Source of the DNA: Candidatus Nomurabacteria bacterium | GTDB taxonomy: Bacteria > Patescibacteriota > Minisyncoccia > Phycocordibacterales > UBA9973 | Direction of reading: 5' to 3' | DNA: 10,598 bases | NCBI GenBank assembly: GCA_021413625.1 | Contig: JAIOPY010000055.1 | Span: forward strand, 4,037 to 14,634 | Shown: one piece after another, positions 1,242 to 10,598 of the stretch | How the letters are laid out: each line of letters starts with the position of its first letter | Position numbering within the stretch: position 1 is the first letter of the stretch | Translations under genes and position numbers: made by a program | Notes under the pieces: model-generated | What the model saw: only the letters and a program-made list of their open reading frames with translations | What the model was told of the DNA's origin: nothing | The model's database searches: none

Positions 1242-4200
1242 TTATATTTTAGCAATTTTTACCTTAAATACCAAAGTTCCGATTTTTACTTCCTCGCCGT
1301 TGTTTTCTTTAAAATCTAGAGTAGAGATAAGCACTGTTTTTTTCATATCCGATTCAAATTTCTGGACTAGTTTTCTACCAGCATCATCTGTCCCTAGCCA
1401 AAGCATTATCGTATCATTGGTTGTTAACCCCATCTTTTTACGCATATCTTGTAACGCGCGCACGAGTTCACGATAATCCCCTTCTTCTTTTAATGCAGGA
1501 GTAAGGTTAGCATCCAACACCAGCTCTTCTTTTTGACCTTTATCTTCTTCCATTTCTTTCACATTCAACTCTTCTTTAACAATTGCTGTAAATTTTTTCG
1601 GAATAGAGATTTTAATTTTTATTTTTGAAAGTGGTTGTTTAACTGGTAAATTTTTAATTTGTCTTTCTTTGAGTCCCATTGAAACAATTTCCCGAACAGT
1701 TTTCATATCAATAATGACTTTTTTCATTCCACCTTTTGTGAAAACAAACTTAACTTTGCCTAAAATAGTTTTAGTGGGCCAATTTTCTAAATGCACACTT
1801 TCTTTATCAACTTCGTTTCTAAGTCCTTGCCAAATATCTTCAGCAGCAAAAGGAGCAAGGGGTGCCATTAATTTAGAAATGGTTTTTAATACATAATACA
1901 GTGTAGCTTTTGCTTCTTTGTCTCCGTCCTTTATTCTTTCTCGTGAACGACGTAAATACCAAGTTGAAAGGTCGCCAATAAAGTCCCGCATTGCCCTTGT
2001 AGGCTCAAGCAATTTGTAACCATCAAGATTATTAGTCATCAATTCAATAAGTTCATCAAGTTTTGCTAAAATCCATTTATCTAAAATATTATTAGATTTA
2101 GGGTAATTATTATTTTCTAAACTTTTATCTCTATAAAGTTCATAAAATGCCAAAACATTGTAAAGCAACCCAAAAACTTGTTGGTGTAAAAGCATTACTG
2201 TTTTTTCATCAAAATTCTTTGATTCTCCAGGTTGATTAACTCCATACATCCAAAGACGCAAAGTATCCACTCCGTATTTATCCATTGCTTCAAATGGCTC
2301 AACCACATTACCTAAAGATTTAGACATTTTTTTACCTTTAGCATCTAGTAAATGCCCAAGACAAATAACATTTTTATATGCCTTACCACGACCCATTAAT
2401 ACCCCAACTGCGTGCAGAGTATAAAACCAGCCACGAGTTTGGTCTATGGCTTCACATATATAGTCTGCTGGATAACCTTTGCCTTCTATCCATTCTTTAT
2501 TTTCAAAAGGATAATGGTCTTGCGCAAAAGGCATACAGCCAGAATCTAGCCAAACGTCTAAAACTTCTTTGGTTCGCTTAAACTCTTTGCCATCTTTTTC
2601 TAAAACCACATTATCAATAAATGGTTTATGTAAATCTAATTCATAACTTTGGTTACAAGGTATTGGCATAAAATTAAGCGTGCGAAGCTCTCCCATTTTT
2701 ATATACTCTTTCTCTGTAGGATATAGGCTTTCTTGTACTGTTAACCCAGAGGAAACAGACTCCAACATCCAAATAACGTCTTCATGGCTCACAATTAGAA
2801 TATTTTTATTTTGAAACTTTTCTTCTGTTTCATAAATAAAGTTTCCAACTCTTTGTTTGACTGCAGTTAATGTTTCTCCGCCTTTTGGTGCTTTCACAAA
2901 CCGTTCCTCTATTGAGGAAAAAAAATTATCATATTCGGCAACTGGTTTACCGTCAAACTCTCCAGTGTGAATTTCAGTAAGCCTTTCATCGGTAATAATT
3001 TTTTCTTCCGAAATACCCACCATTTCTGCCACTATTTTTGATGTTTGTTGTGTGCGTAGAAGTGGGGAAGCAAAAATATAATCCAACTTTTCATTTTTTA
3101 ACAATTCTGCTGATTTTTTTACTCTTTCTATGCCTCTTGGGGTTAAAGGAGAGGGATTGGTATTTGTGGAGTTAGAAATATTTTTAACATTTTTTTCAGA
3201 TTCTCCATGTCTCAACATAAAATACTTGTTACCTGATTTTTTTGTATATTTTTTTAAATCAGATAAAGAACCAACTACTAATTTCTCGCTTGAACCCACT
3301 GCTTCCCAAACAGGCAGGGGTGTTCCCCAATATCTCTCCCGAGAAATCGCCCAATCTTTTATTTCTCTTAGCCACTCTCCAAAACGCCCTTCTCTTATGT
3401 GGGATGGTTCCCAATTTATATCTTTATTTTCAGAAATTAATTTACCTTTAATGTTGGGTTCAGACATTCGGACATACCAAGAATCTCGCGCGTAATAAAT
3501 AAGCGCAGTTTTACAACGCCAACAATGCGGGTAGGAGTGCTCGTAATTTTCTTTTTTGAAAAATAAATTTTTCTTAGTTAGATAATCAATGATATCTACC
3601 GCGAGCGTTGGTTTACCATTGTCATCTTTTTCTTTAACAAACCTGCCTTCTAAAAATCCGGTCCCCTTAACAAATTTACCTTCAAGATTTACTAAATGGT
3701 GCTTTGGTAAACCAACTTGTGTGCCCAGCACAAAGTCATCCTGACCATACATCACTGCGGTATGCACTATACCTGTGCCGTCTTCAGTATTCACAAAGTC
3801 TGCAGCATAAACTTTGTATGCTTTTTCTAACTTTGGTTTTTCGCTGTCACTTATAGTATCGGCAAGAAACGGGAAAAGTGGTTCGTACTCTAGCCCAATG
3901 AGAACTGCACCTAGAAACTGATTTTCAAGAAAATATCCTTCTGTGGCAGGAGTAACAAAATCGGCTCTTTGCTTCGCAACTAAAAAGTATTCAGAATCTT
4001 TTCTATACAATTCATATTCCACCTTAAGACCAATAGCTAAAGCAACATTGCCTGGTAAAGTCCAAGGAGTAGTAGTCCAAGCCAGAACATAAGTATTTTC
4101 TGGTAAACCATGTCGTTTTGGATTTTTTACCTTAAATTTCACATATACAGATAAATCTTTTACATCTTCATAGCCTTGAGCTAGTTCATGAGATGACAGT

Positions 4201-4766
4201 GCTGTCCCGCATCTTGGGCACCAAGGTACAACTTTATAGTCCTTATAAAGTAAACCTTGTTCATTTGTTTTCTTGATTACATTCCAAACAGATTCAATAA
4301 AATTATTACTATAAGTAATATATGGATTTTCTTGGTCCACCCAGTAGCCGATTCTTTTAGTAAATTTGTTCCAAACATCTAAATATTCCCAAACACTTTC
4401 TTTACATTCTTTGTTAAATTTAGCGATGCCATATTCTTCAATAGCTTTTTTAGAATTAAGCCCTAATTTTTTTTCTACTTGTAGTTCTACAGGTAACCCA
4501 TGCGTGTCCCAACCACCTTTTCTACGCACGTGGTATCCCCGCATTGTTTTATATCTCGGAATCGCATCTTTAAAAGCTCTTGCTGCTAAATGGTGTATGC
4601 CAGGTTTGCCGTTTGCTGTCGGCGGACCTTCGTAGAAAACAAATTCTTTATTCCCCACTCTTGCTTCTGTGGATTTTTCAAAAATATTTTTTTCTTTCCA
4701 GAAATTCAAAACACGTTCTTCACGCAAAGCTGCTTCACTTTTTAAATTTTTATTTTCTTCGTTCAT
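1242..4766 (-). CDS. ileS: Isoleucyl-tRNA synthetase with embedded histidine phosphatase domain
   Basis: Charges tRNA-Ile with isoleucine; class I synthetase, 1174 aa from the chosen start. Landmarks in order: GPPTANGKPGIHH at 47-59 (HIGH motif in the GxHH form); GWDTHGLPVELQVEK at 85-99; first Cys pair C183/C186; CP1 editing domain with TTTPWTLPGN at 231-240 and GTGIVH at 330-335 with D344; second Cys pair C415/C418; ISRERYWGTPLPVW at 474-487; DVWLDSG at 737-743; KMSKS at 813-817; then anticodon-binding helices and a C-terminus without the Cys-rich zinc finger of E. coli-type IleRS. Between WGTPLPVW and LDLHKPFIDNV sits an extra domain of about 195 aa (roughly 512-706) with a histidine phosphatase signature. 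The start at 4766 (MNEENKNL) is preferred because the longer in-frame ATG at 4841 would translate through the terminator and T-box. No Shine-Dalgarno is seen; the U-tract of the terminator ends 5 nt before the ATG. The stop is TAA. Confidence 0.95.
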   Translation of the reverse strand: MNEENKNLKSEAALREERVLNFWKEKNIFEKSTEARVGNKEFVFYEGPPTANGKPGIHHLAARAFKDAIPRYKTMRGYHVRRKGGWDTHGLPVELQVEKKLGLNSKKAIEEYGIAKFNKECKESVWEYLDVWNKFTKRIGYWVDQENPYITYSNNFIESVWNVIKKTNEQGLLYKDYKVVPWCPRCGTALSSHELAQGYEDVKDLSVYVKFKVKNPKRHGLPENTYVLAWTTTPWTLPGNVALAIGLKVEYELYRKDSEYFLVAKQRADFVTPATEGYFLENQFLGAVLIGLEYEPLFPFLADTISDSEKPKLEKAYKVYAADFVNTEDGTGIVHTAVMYGQDDFVLGTQVGLPKHHLVNLEGKFVKGTGFLEGRFVKEKDDNGKPTLAVDIIDYLTKKNLFFKKENYEHSYPHCWRCKTALIYYARDSWYVRMSEPNIKGKLISENKDINWEPSHIREGRFGEWLREIKDWAISRERYWGTPLPVWEAVGSSEKLVVGSLSDLKKYTKKSGNKYFMLRHGESEKNVKNISNSTNTNPSPLTPRGIERVKKSAELLKNEKLDYIFASPLLRTQQTSKIVAEMVGISEEKIITDERLTEIHTGEFDGKPVAEYDNFFSSIEERFVKAPKGGETLTAVKQRVGNFIYETEEKFQNKNILIVSHEDVIWMLESVSSGLTVQESLYPTEKEYIKMGELRTLNFMPIPCNQSYELDLHKPFIDNVVLEKDGKEFKRTKEVLDVWLDSGCMPFAQDHYPFENKEWIEGKGYPADYICEAIDQTRGWFYTLHAVGVLMGRGKAYKNVICLGHLLDAKGKKMSKSLGNVVEPFEAMDKYGVDTLRLWMYGVNQPGESKNFDEKTVMLLHQQVFGLLYNVLAFYELYRDKSLENNNYPKSNNILDKWILAKLDELIELMTNNLDGYKLLEPTRAMRDFIGDLSTWYLRRSRERIKDGDKEAKATLYYVLKTISKLMAPLAPFAAEDIWQGLRNEVDKESVHLENWPTKTILGKVKFVFTKGGMKKVIIDMKTVREIVSMGLKERQIKNLPVKQPLSKIKIKISIPKKFTAIVKEELNVKEMEEDKGQKEELVLDANLTPALKEEGDYRELVRALQDMRKKMGLTTNDTIMLWLGTDDAGRKLVQKFESDMKKTVLISTLDFKENNGEEVKIGTLVFKVKIAKI
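2649..3233 (-). other. Histidine phosphatase domain inserted in IleRS
   Basis: Protein domain inside ileS, about residues 512-706, in the same reading frame with no break at either edge. It shows the branch-1 histidine phosphatase order: LRHGES at 518-523 with the putative phospho-accepting H520 (codon at 3207-3209) and R519; LTPRG at 541-545; SPLLRTQQTS at 567-576 with R571; ERLTEIHTGEFDG at 594-606 with candidate acid/base E598; GGETL at 629-633; and VSHEDVIWML at 659-668 with H661. All five residues expected in the phosphate pocket (R, H, R, E, H) are present, so it looks catalytically competent. GpmB/CobC-like enzymes share this layout, but their substrates range from sugar phosphates to phosphoproteins and nucleotides, so the substrate is unknown. 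The flanking IleRS sequence (VVGSLSDLKKY before, ELDLHKPFIDNV after) matches what is normally contiguous in IleRS, which places the insertion point. Confidence 0.9.
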
Positions 4767-4827: not shown

Positions 4828-4995
4828 TCCCGTGGTACCACCTTGTTTACTTCTTAATTAGAGCTTTGACGGGCTCTCCCGTTGGGTTCTACTCATATTT
4901 CTTCCCAAAGCTTTGGGCCGTTCAAGGCTCTGAATCGCCTTTCAGGCTCATGAAGAGTTGATATCCCTTCAACGCTTGTAATTTAATACTATCAA
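4779..4995 (-). promoter_or_regulatory. T-box riboswitch (tRNA-Ile sensing leader of ileS)
   Basis: Leader RNA that senses uncharged tRNA and lets transcription enter ileS when charged tRNA-Ile is scarce. The hallmark AAGGUGGUACCACGG is at 4843-4829. ACAAGG (4846-4841) pairs with CCUUGU (4820-4815), and ACGGG (4833-4829) pairs with CCCGU (4825-4821), forming the antiterminator with a UGGUACC bulge at 4840-4834. In UGGU the last U would face discriminator A73, as expected for tRNA-Ile. Upstream are a hairpin ACGGG-AGAG-CCCGU (4882-4869), CCCAA-AGCU-UUGGG (4917-4904), CUGAA-AGGCGA-UUCAG (4945-4930) and a specifier-type hairpin (4971-4951). The 5' edge is approximate. A TAGTAT box just after the argS stop (about 4991-4986) could be a -10 element, but no convincing -35 is seen, so transcripts may instead read in from argS. 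Antiterminator and terminator are clear; the Stem I fold is less certain. Confidence 0.93.
4951..4971 (-). other. Candidate specifier hairpin with AUC (Ile) triplet
   Basis: On the minus strand UGAAG (4971-4967) pairs with CUUCA (4955-4951), leaving an 11-nt loop GGAUAUCAACU. The loop exposes AUC at 4962-4960, an isoleucine codon, followed by an A as is usual after a T-box specifier. A competing pairing GUUGA (4973-4969) with UCAAC (4961-4957) would bury part of the triplet. The match to the downstream gene's amino acid supports this reading, but the long canonical Stem I with its distal loop motifs was not resolved by eye. Confidence 0.5.
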
Positions 4996-5011: not shown

Positions 5012-6709
5012 CTACATTCTCACTGGAGCATCTATCCCAAGCAAATGTAAGCCCTTCTTCATTACAAATGAGAAAGCATAAGTAAGGGCCACTTTATATG
5101 AAGAAGTTTTATCATCTTTACTGACGATAATGTTGTTGCCATAAAAGCTATTAAATGAACGCGCGAGTTCTATAAGGTAGTTTGCAATATAATGCGGTTC
5201 GTATTCTTCAGCTGCTCTTCTCACAACTTCAGGAAATCTATATAATAATTTTTCAACCTCTGTTACTTCAGGCAAAGAAACATGTGGGTCAGGTAAAATA
5301 TTTTCTTTTTGCGCTTTTTCTAAAACTGAACTTGCTCGCGCGTAGGAATATTGTAAATACGGACCAGAGTCCCCTTCAAAAGAAATAGATTTTTCAAAAT
5401 CATACATAATATCTCCGCCGGTAGATTGTTTTAAAATAGAATACTTTATAGCTGCCACCGCAACCTTGGAAACAATTTCAGTGTTTTCATCATAACCAAA
5501 ATTTTTATCTTTCATTTTCTCGTTTACTAAATTCTTGGTGTCGTTGATAAGCACTTCCCCTGTTATTACGTTGCCCTTTCTGGAGCTCATCTTACCTTCT
5601 GCAAAACGCATCATGCCGTGGGTAATATGCTTCATTTTATTTTCGTATTCTGGGTGAATTAATGAAAGAGCTTTAGCCACAACTTTCATATAGTCCGCTT
5701 GTTCATTTGCGGTAACTACTATAGAAAGGTTTGTGTCGGGCTTTGTCTTAAACTTCTCTTTAGCTAACCCAAGCTCTTTGGTTTCATAAGTTGGTAAGCC
5801 TTGTGAAGTAATGAAAACCCTAGTATGGAGTTTTGGGTCATATTTTTCAGCTTTAAACACAATCGCGTCATCGGACTCTTCAAAAATTTTACCTAAATTT
5901 TCACGAACTATCTTTTCTCCGATTGGCGCCATTAAACTTTCCAAAAAGTAAAAATCAAACTGCGTCCCTAGCATGTCATAAATATCTTCAAAAGCATTCA
6001 TGGTAACTTTTAGACCCCAGTCATATATTTTATTTATCTCATCATCACTGCGAGAATAAACTTTTTTATTTATTTCATCTATTTCATGTTTGTTTTCAGT
6101 GTAAGCTTCAGAGCCCATTGCATAAGCTTTACCAATATTTTCTGCTTGTAAAGAAGTTGCCACAGAATCATCTTGTAGCTTTTTATTTTTTAAAAGCCCA
6201 TAAACAGCTTTAGCCACATGAAGCCCCACATCTCCCTGATAATTCGCCCGAGAAACTTTAGCGCCAGAATTTTCAAGAATTCTAGCAATAGATTCTCCGA
6301 TGGCATTAGTCATCAAGTGACCTATATGAAACGGTTTAAAAGGATTTGGGTCGGTATATTCAATCATTATGTTTTTAGCAGTATGAAGCTTGTTCTCGGC
6401 AAAATCTTTTTTATTTAAAATATCTTCAACACTATGCTTAAAAAACTCTTGAGATAAATAGAAATTTATAAAGCCACCTACAGCTTCTACTTTTTCAACT
6501 TCCTTTGTTAGATTTTTACCTATTTCATTCGCAATTTTTTCTGCTAAATCTTTAGGGTTTGTTTTTATTTTTTTAGCACAAACCATGGCTATGTTTGTGG
6601 AATAATCCCCATTCTTAAAATCCTCAGGATGTTCCACTACAAAATCCACCTCTTCAATTTCAAGGTTCTTTAAAGCTGAGCTAATTAAATTTTGTATTTT
6701 ATCCTGCAT
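5012..6709 (-). CDS. argS: Arginyl-tRNA synthetase
   Basis: Charges tRNA-Arg; class I synthetase that needs tRNA for arginine activation. At 565 aa it is close to the E. coli length of 577. Domains in order: an N-terminal ArgRS additional domain (about 1-85, with the GDYSTNIAM segment at 34-42); EYTDPNPFKPFHIGH at 117-131 with an intact HIGH at 128-131; ANYQGDVGLH at 155-164; the KMSSRKGN signature at 373-380; and a DALR anticodon-binding domain from about 448 (GDSGPYLQYSYARAS) to the C-terminus, ending in the typical LLGIDAPVRM. All catalytic motifs look intact. It begins 9 nt after the mazG stop and is therefore probably on the same transcript as the nucleotide genes upstream. There is no clear ribosome binding site. 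It is followed by the 245-nt gap holding the ileS T-box. The stop is TAG. Confidence 0.97.
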   Translation of the reverse strand: MQDKIQNLISSALKNLEIEEVDFVVEHPEDFKNGDYSTNIAMVCAKKIKTNPKDLAEKIANEIGKNLTKEVEKVEAVGGFINFYLSQEFFKHSVEDILNKKDFAENKLHTAKNIMIEYTDPNPFKPFHIGHLMTNAIGESIARILENSGAKVSRANYQGDVGLHVAKAVYGLLKNKKLQDDSVATSLQAENIGKAYAMGSEAYTENKHEIDEINKKVYSRSDDEINKIYDWGLKVTMNAFEDIYDMLGTQFDFYFLESLMAPIGEKIVRENLGKIFEESDDAIVFKAEKYDPKLHTRVFITSQGLPTYETKELGLAKEKFKTKPDTNLSIVVTANEQADYMKVVAKALSLIHPEYENKMKHITHGMMRFAEGKMSSRKGNVITGEVLINDTKNLVNEKMKDKNFGYDENTEIVSKVAVAAIKYSILKQSTGGDIMYDFEKSISFEGDSGPYLQYSYARASSVLEKAQKENILPDPHVSLPEVTEVEKLLYRFPEVVRRAAEEYEPHYIANYLIELARSFNSFYGNNIIVSKDDKTSSYKVALTYAFSFVMKKGLHLLGIDAPVRM

Positions 6710-6718
6710 TACACTATT

Positions 6719-7051
6719 CTATCTTTTATCACCATCACCTTGCAATTTTCCTCTCTCTTTTCTTGATTGTAATTTATCTACATTAGTTTGAGCAATATCA
6801 CCTAAAGATAGCCCTAAGTCATGCGCAAGCACCGCCACATACCACAGAACGTCTCCAAGTTCTTCTTTTAAGGCTTGTTTTCTATCTGCACTTATTTCAC
6901 CCTCGCCATCATCACCACGCACCCACTTTTTTATTTTACCCAGAACTTCCCCTGCTTCGTTGCCAAGCCCCAACGCAGGGTAAATAATTTTATGCTTTTC
7001 GGCATGAAATGCAGTAGTTAATGCTTTTTTTTGATATTCATTTAGTTCCAT
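6719..7051 (-). CDS. MazG-type nucleotide pyrophosphohydrolase
   Basis: A 110-aa single-domain all-alpha NTP pyrophosphohydrolase of the MazG superfamily. These enzymes split nucleoside triphosphates into monophosphate and pyrophosphate and usually serve as house-cleaning enzymes. The Mg-binding ExxE...ExxD pattern is visible: GLGNEAGEVLGKIKK with E32 and E35, then EELGDVLWYVAVLA with E64 and D67. NVDKLQSRKERG at 90-101 and a GDGDKR tail are also typical. The protein has one such domain, unlike the two-domain E. coli MazG, and an acidic loop (GDDGEGE, 46-52) between the motifs. It starts 7 nt after the P-loop kinase gene and ends 9 nt before argS. The substrate is not predictable; dUTP, dCTP or damaged nucleotides are possible for the family. 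Despite the family name there is no toxin-antitoxin partner beside it. Confidence 0.88.
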   Translation of the reverse strand: MELNEYQKKALTTAFHAEKHKIIYPALGLGNEAGEVLGKIKKWVRGDDGEGEISADRKQALKEELGDVLWYVAVLAHDLGLSLGDIAQTNVDKLQSRKERGKLQGDGDKR

Positions 7052-7058
7052 ATAATTT

Positions 7059-7643
7059 TTACTTTTTTAATTTAAAATTTTTAATAATCATATCCACAAC
7101 TTTTTTAGGAGAAACATTTGTATTGTCTATAATAAGATTACTTTTTATATTTGGAGCAACATGCCAATCATATCCCAATTTTTTGAAAATCTTTTTACTA
7201 GTTAATTTTTTAAATTGCTTTCGCGATTCCATCCCAACCCGACGAAGCAGTTCTTTGTTATCTGCTTTCAAAAAAATTGGGTGAAATTTTGCTCCAAGTT
7301 TAGTTAATCTCTTTTGTAGAGTTTTAACATACTTTGGGTCTGAAAGTCCTGTCCTAGAAACAAAATCATGGCGATAACAATGTGTCGCCACAATATTCAT
7401 GCCTGCTTTTACCGTGTTTTCTAATAAATAATACCTTAAATAATCTTTAATGGCATGGCTGGCATAAGAGCCACGGTCAAATATTTCTCCAACAAAATCA
7501 TTTAAATGATGATTGTGGACTAATTTATATCCTAATTTTTTACTCAAAATTTTTGCTACGGTTAATTTACCCACAGCAATAGGACCATAAATAAAGACGA
7601 CATTTGGCTTTTTATTTTTTGATAATTTTTTTAATTTTTTCAT
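7059..7643 (-). CDS. P-loop kinase/phosphotransferase of unknown substrate
   Basis: A small P-loop ATP-binding protein resembling nucleoside, shikimate or chloramphenicol phosphotransferase-type kinases, often annotated only as AAA-family ATPase. From the chosen start it has 194 aa: Walker A GPIAVGKLT at 20-28, a HNHHLNDFV segment at 43-51 where such kinases often bind substrate, a second-strand ATHCYRHDF segment at 86-94, a lid-like ELLRRVGMESRKQ at 131-143, and a C-terminal IIDNTNVSPKKVV segment typical of these kinases. The start at 7643 (MKKLKKLSKN) is chosen over the in-frame ATG at 7694 because it leaves about 20 residues before Walker A and cuts the overlap with tmk from 83 to 32 nt; the longer start cannot be excluded. 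No ribosome binding site is visible, so translation is probably coupled to tmk. It lies between Tmk and MazG, so a nucleotide or nucleoside substrate is an inference from context only. Confidence 0.75.
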   Translation of the reverse strand: MKKLKKLSKNKKPNVVFIYGPIAVGKLTVAKILSKKLGYKLVHNHHLNDFVGEIFDRGSYASHAIKDYLRYYLLENTVKAGMNIVATHCYRHDFVSRTGLSDPKYVKTLQKRLTKLGAKFHPIFLKADNKELLRRVGMESRKQFKKLTSKKIFKKLGYDWHVAPNIKSNLIIDNTNVSPKKVVDMIIKNFKLKK

Positions 7644-8307
7644 AAACTTTTTTATGAATATCTTCGCGAGATTCCATTTTACCGTCCTTAACACATTCTA
7701 TTTTTATCCAACCTTTTTGAGTTTTTGCTAACCATAACGCACTTTTACGAGAATTTTCTAAAAAATTAACATCTTTTTCGTGGACGTCTTTTTTCTTACC
7801 TAAGTAGCTTCTACTCTTCCCCTTGTTTCGTTCACGAATTAATTTTAAAACAATGTTAATAGGAACATTTAAATAAAAAATTGCATCCGGTTTCGGAATT
7901 TTAAAAACTTTGTATTCCATCTCTGCCAACCATTTAATAAACGCTTCACGCTTTTTAGTATTAGAAATCTTTCCACCTTGATGGATTTGGTTTGCGCTTG
8001 CATACCTATTTGCGATAACCACATTGCCTTCTTTTAACCATTTTTCAATTTTGTTTTTAGATTCAAAACGGTCTGCTGCGTATAAAACTGAGGCAATTTT
8101 TGGGTGCACTCTCACGAAATCATAATACCTCTCAGACAAGCAGTGTCCTATAAATTTTCCAAAGAAGTTTGAGTAGTAATCAGGGAAATCAACAACTTTT
8201 ACTTTGTAGCCATCTTTCTTTAAATGTTTGATTAGAAGCTCTGTCTGCGTAGCCTTACCAGACCCATCTGTACCATCTATTACAATCAATTTTCCCTTTT
8301 TCGCCAT
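7612..8307 (-). CDS. tmk: Thymidylate kinase (dTMP kinase)
   Basis: Phosphorylates dTMP to dTDP with ATP, an essential step of dTTP synthesis in the cytoplasm. At 231 aa it is slightly longer than the usual 205-215. Visible motifs: P-loop GTDGSGKATQ at 12-21 with K18; VVDFPDYYS at 38-46 with the DFP-type dTMP-site motif; YAADRFES at 77-84 with the DR pair; VIANRYASANQIHQGGKI at 97-114 covering the base-binding region; and a long basic lid around RERNKGKSRSYLGKKKDVHEKD. The C-terminus is lysine-rich (KKVYEKIKKIIKK) and its codons overlap the start of the next gene by 32 nt. It starts 36 nt after the Nudix gene, in AT-rich sequence with no clear Shine-Dalgarno. Context with glyA upstream fits thymidylate synthesis. 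The stop is TAA. Confidence 0.93.
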   Translation of the reverse strand: MAKKGKLIVIDGTDGSGKATQTELLIKHLKKDGYKVKVVDFPDYYSNFFGKFIGHCLSERYYDFVRVHPKIASVLYAADRFESKNKIEKWLKEGNVVIANRYASANQIHQGGKISNTKKREAFIKWLAEMEYKVFKIPKPDAIFYLNVPINIVLKLIRERNKGKSRSYLGKKKDVHEKDVNFLENSRKSALWLAKTQKGWIKIECVKDGKMESREDIHKKVYEKIKKIIKK

Positions 8308-8343
8308 TTAGAAAATATAGCAGAAAAAAGCTTAAATAGAAAA

Positions 8344-8739
8344 TTACAGGAACTTCTGTAAAACTTCTTCTAGATAAGGGTCTAATCCTTCTTGCCCCAT
8401 CATTTCTTTTTTAGAAATCCAAATGAATTCAGAGTGTTCATCACTTATTTTTATTTCACCTTCTGCCTCTCCCAGATAAGTAAGCCTAACTACATGTCTT
8501 TTAGGGCGTAATATATCCTGCGCGGCAATCAACTTTGGTTCACCAGATAGAACCAAACCTGTCTCTTCTAATATTTCTCGTTGTAAATTCTGCATTAGGG
8601 TTGAACCAGGCTCAATACGTCCTCCAGGAATGTCTAACAATTTATGAACTTCGGAATATTTTTCTGGATTTCTACGTAAGACAAGAAAGTTTCCTTCTTT
8701 GTTCTTCAATAAAATTTTCACCCCTACTTGTAGTTCCAT
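8344..8739 (-). CDS. Nudix hydrolase with altered Nudix box
   Basis: A 131-aa Nudix-fold hydrolase; the family cleaves nucleoside diphosphates linked to another group, such as oxidised dNTPs, sugar nucleotides or capped RNA. The Nudix box runs from G40 to about V63: G40, then S46 where the first glutamate of Gx5E normally sits, then R54-E55 and E58-E59 followed by G61. The REUxEExGU half that binds metal is intact (REILEETGLV); only the first glutamate is replaced by serine. A preceding LLDIPGGRIEPG at 34-45 is standard. The substrate cannot be assigned. It begins 3 nt after the glyA stop, which suggests a shared transcript, and precedes tmk by 36 nt. There is no ribosome binding site to speak of. 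The stop is TAA. Confidence 0.9.
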   Translation of the reverse strand: MELQVGVKILLKNKEGNFLVLRRNPEKYSEVHKLLDIPGGRIEPGSTLMQNLQREILEETGLVLSGEPKLIAAQDILRPKRHVVRLTYLGEAEGEIKISDEHSEFIWISKKEMMGQEGLDPYLEEVLQKFL

Positions 8740-8742
8740 AAT

Positions 8743-9987
8743 TTATACAAAACTCTTAGGTATTGGAAACTTTTTAGCTAATTTTTTTATTTCTTTATGC
8801 ACTTCCATTTTAACTTTATTATTATCTTTATTCTTTAGGGTCTTTATCATCAGCTCAGCAACTTGTTTACATTCACGTTCTTTAAAACCACGAGTAGTTA
8901 TGGCTGGAGTGCCAAATCTTATTCCAGACGGGTCCATAGGCTTTCTGGTGTCTCCCGCAATAGAATTCATATTAAGTGTCATACCTAATTCATCAAGCAC
9001 GCTTTGGGCTTCTTTGCCGGTTACTCCTAAAGACCCATAAACATCCGCTAAAATAAGGTGATTGTCAGTTCCGCCACCAATCATTCTAACTTTATGTTTT
9101 TTAAACACTTCTGCCATGGCTTTAGCATTTTTAAGAACCTGTTGTGCATATTTTTTATATTTAGGAGTCATTGCTTCACCAAAAGCCACAGCTTTAGCCG
9201 CAATTATATGCATGTGTGGACCACCTTGAATACCAGGGAAAATTGCTTTATCTATTTTCTTGGCAATCTCTTCACTCTCCCTAGTAAGTATTAAACCTCC
9301 GCGTGGACCACGGAGAGTTTTGTGTGTAGTAGAAGTAATAATATCAAAACCATCATCAAATGGATTACGAAGGGCACCTGCAGCGATAAGCCCAGCAATG
9401 TGAGCCATGTCTGCCATTGTTATTGCACCCACCTCATGCGCAATCTCTACAAACTTTTTATAGTTCAACGTTCTCGGATATGCAGAAAAACCAGCAATAA
9501 TTAATTTTGGTTTATGTTCTTTGGCTACTTTCAACATATCTTCATAATCAATTTCTCCTGTGTCTGGATTTTTCATTTTATAAGTTACAAACTTATAAAT
9601 TTTTGCGGGCAAAGTCATTGGGTGTCCGTGGGTAAGGTGTCCACCATGAGACAAATCCATTCCCATAACAGTATCTCCTGGTTCAAGAAGAGCAGAATAC
9701 ACAGCTAGGTTTGCTGGCGCACCAGAGTGAGCCTGCACATTTGCAAATTTACATTTAAAAAGTTTACACGCACGTTCAATTGCCAACCTTTCAACTTGGT
9801 CAGTCCATTCTTGCCCACCGTAATATCTGCGTCCTGGATATCCTTCAGAATATTTATTTGTGAAAACAGAACCATTGGCTTTCAACACATCATCCGAAAC
9901 ATAGTTTTCAGAAGGGATTAATTCTAAGCCCTCTTTTTGCCTCTTTTCTTCACCTTTAATTAGTTTTTCAATTTTTTTGTCTCGCAT
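8743..9987 (-). CDS. glyA: Serine hydroxymethyltransferase
   Basis: PLP-dependent enzyme that interconverts serine plus tetrahydrofolate with glycine plus 5,10-methylene-tetrahydrofolate, the one-carbon donor for dTMP and purines. It has 414 aa, the usual bacterial length. Motifs: GLELIPSENYVS at 20-31; NKYSEGYPGRRYYGG at 44-58; SGAPANLAVY at 88-97; MADMAHIAGL at 191-200 with D193 and H196 of the PLP site; the active-site lysine K223 in STTHKTLRGPRGG; FPGIQGGPH at 250-258; and GIRFGTPAITTRG at 355-367 with substrate-carboxylate R357. All key residues are present. The start MRDKKIEKLI matches the family's N-terminus and lies 28 nt inside the end of the upstream ComEC-like gene, which suggests translational coupling. 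The position before a Nudix gene and tmk fits a nucleotide/one-carbon cluster. Confidence 0.98.
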   Translation of the reverse strand: MRDKKIEKLIKGEEKRQKEGLELIPSENYVSDDVLKANGSVFTNKYSEGYPGRRYYGGQEWTDQVERLAIERACKLFKCKFANVQAHSGAPANLAVYSALLEPGDTVMGMDLSHGGHLTHGHPMTLPAKIYKFVTYKMKNPDTGEIDYEDMLKVAKEHKPKLIIAGFSAYPRTLNYKKFVEIAHEVGAITMADMAHIAGLIAAGALRNPFDDGFDIITSTTHKTLRGPRGGLILTRESEEIAKKIDKAIFPGIQGGPHMHIIAAKAVAFGEAMTPKYKKYAQQVLKNAKAMAEVFKKHKVRMIGGGTDNHLILADVYGSLGVTGKEAQSVLDELGMTLNMNSIAGDTRKPMDPSGIRFGTPAITTRGFKERECKQVAELMIKTLKNKDNNKVKMEVHKEIKKLAKKFPIPKSFV

Positions 9988-10598
9988 GGTTTTATTCTAT
10001 CACAAGAAAAAACAATAGTCCCAAATAAATCAGTTCTTAAAATTTCGGCATTAAAACTAGCTAGTATGTCAAGAACATCCTTATGTGGGTGACCATAGCT
10101 ATTGTCTTCCCCGCTTGAAATTAAAGCATATTTTGGCGAAACCGCTTCTATAAAAACACCAGAAGAAGAAGTCCTAGAACCATGATGCCCGACTTTTAAA
10201 ACATCACTCTTAAGCATTGTTTTTGCATTTTCTTCAAGGATTATTTTTTCGGTCAAAGATGTAGCATCTCCCATAAGCATGATAGAAATATCGCCATAAA
10301 CAAGTTTGGCTACCAGAGAGCCGTCATTGGTGGACCACATTGAAACATCACGGTCAGGAAATAAAATATCTATCACCACTCCACCACCTAGATTTAAGCG
10401 CATACCTTTTCTAGCTAAAATATTTTGAATATTTTTATTTTTTATTTCATCTTTTAAATTTTGATAAATTTTAGAATCATTGACAGTGCCAGGTTCAAAA
10501 ACTTTATCTACTTTGTAACTTTTTAAAACATCTAAAAAACCACCAATGTGGTCTTGGTCGGGATTAGTAATGATGAACGCATCTAAATGTCTATCAAA
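9960..10598 (-). CDS. ComEC-like metallo-beta-lactamase domain, 5'-truncated by window
   Basis: The C-terminal 212 aa of an open frame that runs off the right edge of the window. It reads without a stop from 10598 and begins, as seen here, FDRHLDAFIITNPDQDH. It matches the C-terminal MBL domain of ComEC/Rec2 or its stand-alone relatives: TNPDQDHIGG at visible residues 11-20, MGDAT with D111, LKVGHHGSRTSS with H138 and H139, and NSYGHPH ending near H171. ComEC imports transforming DNA across the inner membrane, and its MBL domain is thought to degrade the non-transported strand. Stand-alone versions are secreted or membrane-tethered hydrolases of unknown role. Which form this is cannot be told, since the region where a transmembrane channel domain or signal peptide would lie is outside the window. 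The first metal-site histidine (THxDxDH in ComEC) is Asn here (N12). The end overlaps glyA by 28 nt; the stop is TAA. Confidence 0.85.
   Translation of the reverse strand, partial: FDRHLDAFIITNPDQDHIGGFLDVLKSYKVDKVFEPGTVNDSKIYQNLKDEIKNKNIQNILARKGMRLNLGGGVVIDILFPDRDVSMWSTNDGSLVAKLVYGDISIMLMGDATSLTEKIILEENAKTMLKSDVLKVGHHGSRTSSSGVFIEAVSPKYALISSGEDNSYGHPHKDVLDILASFNAEILRTDLFGTIVFSCDRIKPCETKKLKN

Follow-up and report, generated by a model that had tools for sequence, protein, structure and literature searches.

A window of 10,598 nt was analysed, taken from Candidatus Nomurabacteria bacterium (GCA_021413625.1, contig JAIOPY010000055.1, positions 4,037-14,634, forward strand), whose small genome (527 kb) is available as a fragmented draft of 84 contigs. 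The ileS gene of this window (1242..4766, minus strand) encodes an isoleucyl-tRNA synthetase (IleRS) with an embedded histidine phosphatase, 1174 aa long when read from the ATG at 4766; a further in-frame start, GTG, is found upstream at 4841. Upstream of ileS and on the same strand (5012-10403) are argS, a MazG-like gene, a dNK/AAA-like kinase gene and genes for thymidylate kinase, a NUDIX protein and GlyA, and downstream (12-1239) are a metallo-beta-lactamase-fold gene and recO. The ileS neighbourhood is one of genes for nucleotide handling beside two synthetase genes.

The synthetase part of the protein scores 849.4 bits with TIGR00392 (curated cut-off 621.4). Both the class I signature (residues 56-59; 4590..4601, minus strand, read from the translation) and the KMSKS motif (residues 813-817; 2316..2330, minus strand) are found, as had been expected from a sequence-only reading of this DNA, which held the IleRS motifs to be intact. 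The class I signature is GIHH in place of HIGH, i.e. of the swapped GXHH type. Like the window IleRS, some type 2 IleRS (IleRS2) carry the GXHH signature, which has been tied to their mupirocin hyper-resistance (PMC10485003).

The inserted phosphatase domain, which breaks up the class I domain of the synthetase, occupies residues 512-706, numbered from the ATG at 4766 (2649..3233, minus strand). Within it, the Pfam profile His_Phos_1 (PF00300) matches residues 516-674 (2745-3221, minus strand) at 110.6 bits against a gathering cut-off of 21.7 (E 1e-31), and the excised stretch alone gives E 2.9e-33, in agreement with the in-frame histidine phosphatase proposed earlier. The catalytic residues named in that proposal lie at the expected positions and are conserved in relatives. 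They comprise R519-H520 in LRHGES (3207..3212), of which H520 is the expected phospho-acceptor, the phosphate-binding R571 in SPLLRTQQTS (3054..3056), the expected proton donor E598 (2973..2975) and the second catalytic histidine, H661, in VSHED (2784..2786). S567 and E631, the latter in a GGE motif (2874..2876), show the same degree of conservation, and all are encoded on the minus strand. The window protein is apparently a complete IleRS with a branch-1 histidine phosphatase inside it, that is, two enzymes in one chain, and the earlier suggestion of a possibly bifunctional enzyme with both sites intact gains support from the conservation of the sequences.

The best solved IleRS, 8c8w, which we take to be the Priestia megaterium IleRS2 of the GXHH study, aligns to window residues 7-508 and resumes at residue 710. 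Its residues 478 and 486 border the gap left by the insert, so about 200 aa in the window IleRS stand against about 7 in 8c8w, and the insert does split segments that are normally adjacent. The framework, the KMSKS motif and the anticodon domain are common to the window IleRS and IleRS type 2 (8c8w; 1ile), but the former has about 200 more residues, a predicted second active site and no CxxC pairs in the loop. This loop, behind WGTPLPVW, is presumably the second connective peptide (connective peptide 2), and the phosphatase within it separates the two halves of a zinc knuckle (CxxC...CxxC). The left half (residues 488-493; 3288..3305, minus strand) has WEAVGSS and not the CxxC of many relatives, and CxxC is likewise absent from the right half (residues 723-728, LEKDGKE; 2583..2600, minus strand). 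In insert-free relatives found by a motif scan, about 27-38 residues separate the flanking motifs. Both CxxC pairs are retained in 38 of 87 phosphatase-bearing IleRS compared with 25 of 34 insert-free ones (counts that ignore relatedness); thus, zinc-knuckle loss is commoner with the insert yet not required by it. The location in this loop and the lower rate of retention would suit an insert that is structural and devoid of catalysis, but the 38 synthetases that keep both pairs beside the insert argue against such a role.

The excised domain matched 18 NCBIfam models and scores under the curated cut-off in each case, including dPGM_arch (91.1 against 225), CobC ribazole (77 against 162.9), PspA (72.2 against 350), GpmB (51.2 against 261) and SixA (35.4 against 74.5), and its assignment to a named equivalog was rejected. 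By profile, the closest solved relatives are phosphatase 1ebb/1h2e, presumably PhoE, phosphoserine phosphatase 1 (4ij5) and CobC (6nru). These PF00300 branch-1 enzymes share the catalytic residues and the profile with the window phosphatase, but they are free-standing proteins of 202-211 aa, whereas the latter is embedded in a tRNA synthetase. Extra domains are not new in synthetases. For an additional enzyme domain in IleRS, NCBI already has a precedent, ileS_w_GNAT (NF040702), in which IleRS is combined with an acetyltransferase; the added enzyme is a different one, and the window protein scores 323.6 against a cut-off of 1999. In the bifunctional RNase H/acid phosphatase (NF005567), too, a histidine phosphatase is linked to a second enzyme, but as an end-to-end fusion, as opposed to the internal loop insertion of the window; the score with this model is 76.2 bits (cut-off 326). 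To our knowledge, no synthetase is known with an embedded phosphatase having conserved catalytic residues. Full-text searches of open-licence papers yielded no description of a tRNA synthetase containing a histidine phosphatase, and the main text of PMC10485003 has zero mentions of 'Patescibacteria', 'candidate phyla' or 'phosphatase'.

Conservation of the catalytic site was followed in a set of IleRS made up of ORFs whose matches to the two IleRS halves add up to a score of at least 600 (128 ORFs, 121 distinct); fragments at contig ends were left out, and the set was deliberately enriched for phosphatase-bearing genomes. The insert is present at the same place in 87 of the 121 distinct IleRS, which bears out the expectation that related genomes may share it, and the sequences compared are 30-51 % identical to that of the window. 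Across the 102 phosphatase copies in these 87 IleRS, R519, H520, S567, R571 and H661 are invariant, E598 is kept in 101 with D in the remaining copy, and E631 is found in 100, with two gaps. Similarly, 23 IleRS among the best 80 of 584 relatives in the GTDB collection carry the insert, and their 24 copies all have R519, H520, S567 and R571; E598 is retained in 23, the other copy having D, and E631 and H661 each occur in 23, with a gap in the other copy. In this second set, L215 is truncated at a contig end. The sets overlap by at least one gene, since L214 and L086 (first set) are one and the same, and independence of the two is therefore not complete. The profile itself tolerates loss of catalytic residues, as a valyl-tRNA synthetase (ValRS) copy without the last histidine still scores 123 bits.

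The phosphatase domain is under purifying selection. Its dN/dS was 0.072, 0.093, 0.131, 0.165 and 0.257 in five of seven chosen pairs, the other two being saturated, and in the closest pair the value of 0.072 compares with 0.09 and 0.067 in the flanks. In the closest pairs, dN of the domain is not consistently above that of the synthetase halves; hence diversifying selection as such is not indicated, and faster evolution of the domain was rejected as proof of it, which slightly lowers the odds of the protective reading given below. Because the catalytic residues are invariant in the 102 copies bar one E-to-D change and two gaps, the embedded phosphatase is very likely catalytically active. Lack of conservation of these residues in orthologues, named beforehand as a refutation, is not what was observed. 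The same invariance, at 30-51 % identity, exceeds what folding would need and disfavours a structural-only insert, which we consider very improbable.

The insert is common in Patescibacteria. At least 20 of 145 genomes drawn evenly from the phylum carry a phosphatase at the window's IleRS site among the matches listed, which extend down to E ~6e-17; the 20 carriers have E <1e-60, with matches over nearly all 265 profile positions in frames of more than 1100 aa. A further genome of the phylum sample (G046) has a phosphatase at another IleRS site. Within the class to which the window belongs, the insert is found in 25 of the 32 genomes sampled, and the members without it are G174, G205, G256, G273, G281, G331 and G348; G394, of the same genus as the window and outside the 32-genome sample, is also without it. 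Of the 23 phosphatase-bearing IleRS from the GTDB collection (best 80 of 584 relatives), 16 are named as Patescibacteria lineages, namely Nomura-, Zambryski-, Yanofsky-, Giovannoni-, Sungi- and Peregrinibacteria, Paceibacterota and Parcubacteria. A further match, L217, is truncated at its contig end and was counted neither as a carrier nor as a non-carrier. The remaining matches among these best 80 are short flanking stretches, mostly from other phyla, with a few from Patescibacteria. On a tree of the 121 IleRS cores, presence and absence of the insert require 11 changes. As regards carriage by phages, 14 relatives were found in viral contigs, and none of them covers the insert.

This distribution bears on two of the alternatives. 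An assembly or binning artefact might be suspected from the fragmented 84-contig draft of the window's genome, but the same-site insert in 87 distinct IleRS and in 23 IleRS of the GTDB set refutes it, together with the chimera that had been named as a concern; an artefact is extremely improbable. A second alternative is that the phosphatase acts on the synthetase's normal product or substrate and so drives or repairs aminoacylation, with AMP from charging or editing, or the phosphorylated 3' end of a damaged tRNA, as example targets. The invariant catalytic residues would agree with such a housekeeping step, but the insert is missing in most of the phylum sample (among the matches listed) and in 7 of 32 class members.

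In some genomes the phosphatase is a separate gene by the synthetase. The first in-frame ATG of the insert-free ileS lies 4 nt past the stop of a 209-codon phosphatase ORF in G273 and 14 nt past the stop of a 200-codon phosphatase ORF in G348, while G331 has a related phosphatase gene about 0.9-1 kb upstream of ileS. The G273 phosphatase groups with the inserted phosphatases, with starred support, in a smaller tree; in a larger tree, from which two long-branched free phosphatases had been removed beforehand, those of G273 and G348 both fall among the inserted ones with support of 85-86. Five of eight insert-free class ileS examined have no flanking phosphatase gene within about 1.5 kb (G174), 4-5 kb (G205, G256 and G281) or a single 5.8-kb contig (G394). 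Thus, the partnership of phosphatase and ileS is not obligatory. The idea that a free phosphatase of G394 is the excised domain is unsupported, and this protein groups with ordinary free phosphatases. The association of the phosphatase with the synthetase, either inside IleRS or as a gene directly upstream, is well supported by these comparisons, and it also counts in favour of a housekeeping step.

Further, the phosphatase is found in more than one copy, site and host. More than one phosphatase domain occurs in 14 of the 87 IleRS (13 with two, one with three), and 12 of these 14 belong to one family (f82); L214, a named member of this family, is a Peregrinibacterium. G368, G242 and G046 have a phosphatase at a second IleRS site, which follows roughly position 181 in the C-terminal half. 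Phosphatases are also present in ValRS of G223, G229, G372, G364, G003, G044 and G046 (twice in the last), and all seven of these proteins pass the TIGR00422 valS model (698.8-899.2 bits; cut-off 612.1). Two genomes, G223 and G372, have the phosphatase in both IleRS and ValRS. By eye, the phosphatase of the G364 ValRS sits in a different loop, the last catalytic histidine is retained in seven of eight ValRS copies, and the G003 and G044 copies seemingly have D at the E598 position. In the G044 copy (L277:2526-5504, minus strand) the final catalytic histidine is replaced by serine, and this copy is possibly inactive. IleRS and ValRS both edit misacylated tRNA, and the finding of the phosphatase in these synthetases is a further point for a housekeeping step.

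Trees of the phosphatases suggest several recruitments. A single origin of all IleRS phosphatases was rejected (p 0.0087), for a group that was named after a tree had been seen. One origin for the 89 site-1 copies together with the upstream genes was not rejected (p 0.891). The constrained single-origin site-1 tree has a likelihood 54 units above that of the free quick tree, the search for which missed it; in this free tree the site-1 copies fall into two weakly supported parts. The smaller tree places the site-1 copies in one branch (97), with one ValRS copy and two further L100 copies. Repeated recruitment of the phosphatase to IleRS and ValRS is well supported by the sequence data.

Other arrangements were encountered in the same searches. 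Histidine phosphatases are fused to an MFS/Atg22-like transporter (L102:4185-6056, minus strand) and joined to D-2-hydroxyacid dehydrogenases (L103:3764-5413 and L279:1988-3643, both minus strand), and a 665-aa protein (L278:1653-3647) combines a histidine phosphatase with a nucleotidyltransferase domain. The 1277-aa ValRS of G229 (L075:2327-6157) carries a histidine phosphatase domain together with a serine-hydrolase domain and, in the editing region, a HAD-like domain; the 1281-aa ValRS of G372 (L080:2195-6037) has the first two of these. An IleRS of G046 (L275:2638-6990, minus strand) contains a GNAT insert at residues 666-764 (E 1.1e-6), with the phosphatase at the second site. Another IleRS (L286:2739-6146) shows by eye several proline-/glycine-rich low-complexity insertions, which are perhaps translated repeats. 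In two long frames (1795 aa, G003:C23:7649-7762; 1193 aa, G229:C11:235581-235718) the profile match is to the synthetase flank only.

The fusions to unrelated proteins, i.e. the transporter and the dehydrogenases, lend themselves to the view that this is a general metabolic phosphatase housed in an essential gene merely for its expression or retention. However, in 73 genomes for which matches were listed in full, 12 of the 14 genome-by-host cases in frames of more than 500 aa are IleRS (nine) or ValRS (three), the two others being a hydroxyacid dehydrogenase fusion and a protein with a nucleotidyltransferase domain. Recurrent insertion into loops of two related synthetases, and a free gene next to or near ileS in three genomes, also speak against a passenger, and we regard this explanation as unlikely.

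Exchange of the phosphatase between synthetase backbones was examined in the window's own genus and family. The genus has two synthetase types, between which identity of the N-terminal halves is only 44-48 % in the compared pairs; type A, which includes the window, has mostly GXHH and type B mostly HYGH. The two types are interspersed on an rpoB tree of 27 genomes (branch supports not inspected), and neighbours of opposite type are G399 (B) and G381 (A), G390 (B) and G400 (A), and G391 (B) and G386 (A). This tree covers 27 of 30 genomes, two having no rpoB match and G394 no insert, and the window's rpoB is partial (701 aa). Mostly-GXHH and mostly-HYGH cores are seen to swap between close relatives in this genus.

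For 24 genomes of the window's family, the tree of synthetase cores separates types A and B with full support. In contrast, the phosphatase tree of the same genomes needs 7 A/B changes, compared with 6.9 when labels are shuffled, and holding the type-B domains together was rejected (AU p 5e-6). Over 276 pairs of both kinds, mean identity within types is 71.9 % in the N-terminal half, 42.4 % in the domain and 65.1 % in the C-terminal half, and between types it is 44.3, 40.3 and 50.8 %, respectively. Patristic distances of the domain give Pearson correlations of 0.25 with rpoB, 0.14 with the N-terminal half and 0.16 with the C-terminal half; those of the two halves correlate at 0.57 with each other, and at 0.63 (C) and 0.04 (N) with rpoB. 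Individual pairs are more direct. Between L038 and L050, which differ in type, identity is 70 % for the domain as against 48 and 54 % outside it, and synonymous divergence is lower in the domain, whereas L050 and L053, of the same type, are 86 % identical in the N-terminal half, 41 % in the domain and 74 % in the C-terminal half. In the pairs plotted, DNA identity changes near the domain edges. A low average identity of the domain may reflect either exchange or old divergence, and only the well-supported discordant pairs are direct evidence of exchange. Taken in this way, exchange of the phosphatase domain independently of the synthetase core is well supported for the window's family; the exchanged part could be either the domains or the surrounding cores.

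Such independent exchange counts against a housekeeping step in aminoacylation, which, with the arguments on both sides given above, is possible but doubtful. It would also be unexpected in a dedicated regulator of one core. Under a regulatory role, the phosphatase would act on a protein partner or on the synthetase and make charging responsive to phosphate or energy state. Both proteins and small molecules are substrates of branch-1 members, and the closest solved relatives (the 1ebb/1h2e phosphatase, phosphoserine phosphatase 1 and CobC) are in keeping with this role, which nevertheless seems improbable.

The reading that we prefer, and put forward tentatively, is that of a tethered, exchangeable phosphatase which serves the synthetase, most likely in a protective or accessory capacity. 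By analogy with the superfamily, a phospho-histidine would form at H520, with the phosphate held by R519, R571 and H661 and with E598 as the proton donor. The phosphate would be taken off something that reaches or modifies the synthetase, and tethering would provide a high local concentration of phosphatase there. A phosphorylated inhibitor may be removed in this manner, or phosphorylation of the synthetase or its tRNA may be undone. A protective or accessory function is considered more likely than a fixed housekeeping step of aminoacylation on account of the evolutionary pattern: most of the phylum sample lacks the insert, and the domain is exchanged without its core.

A broader proposal, which we hold to be possible at best, is that Patescibacteria protect their aminoacyl-tRNA synthetases by a phosphatase cassette that is mobile and exchangeable, sits in a few permissive loops and is shuffled across backbones and species. 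IleRS and ValRS would then carry mainly histidine phosphatases and, singly, HAD-like, serine-hydrolase and GNAT domains, and the inserted domains would act against phosphorylated inhibitors or modifications that target the synthetase, by destroying or reversing them. The inserted GNAT (G046), HAD-like (G229) and serine-hydrolase (G229 and G372) domains, although single cases, fit a toolkit of small detoxifiers.

Since relatives supply insert-bearing, insert-free and split versions, the role of the phosphatase is testable with purified proteins. The embedded phosphatase is widespread in a large, mostly uncultured group of bacteria with small genomes. If its activity and substrate are found, they would reveal either a novel step connected with tRNA charging or a new form of protection of an essential enzyme.
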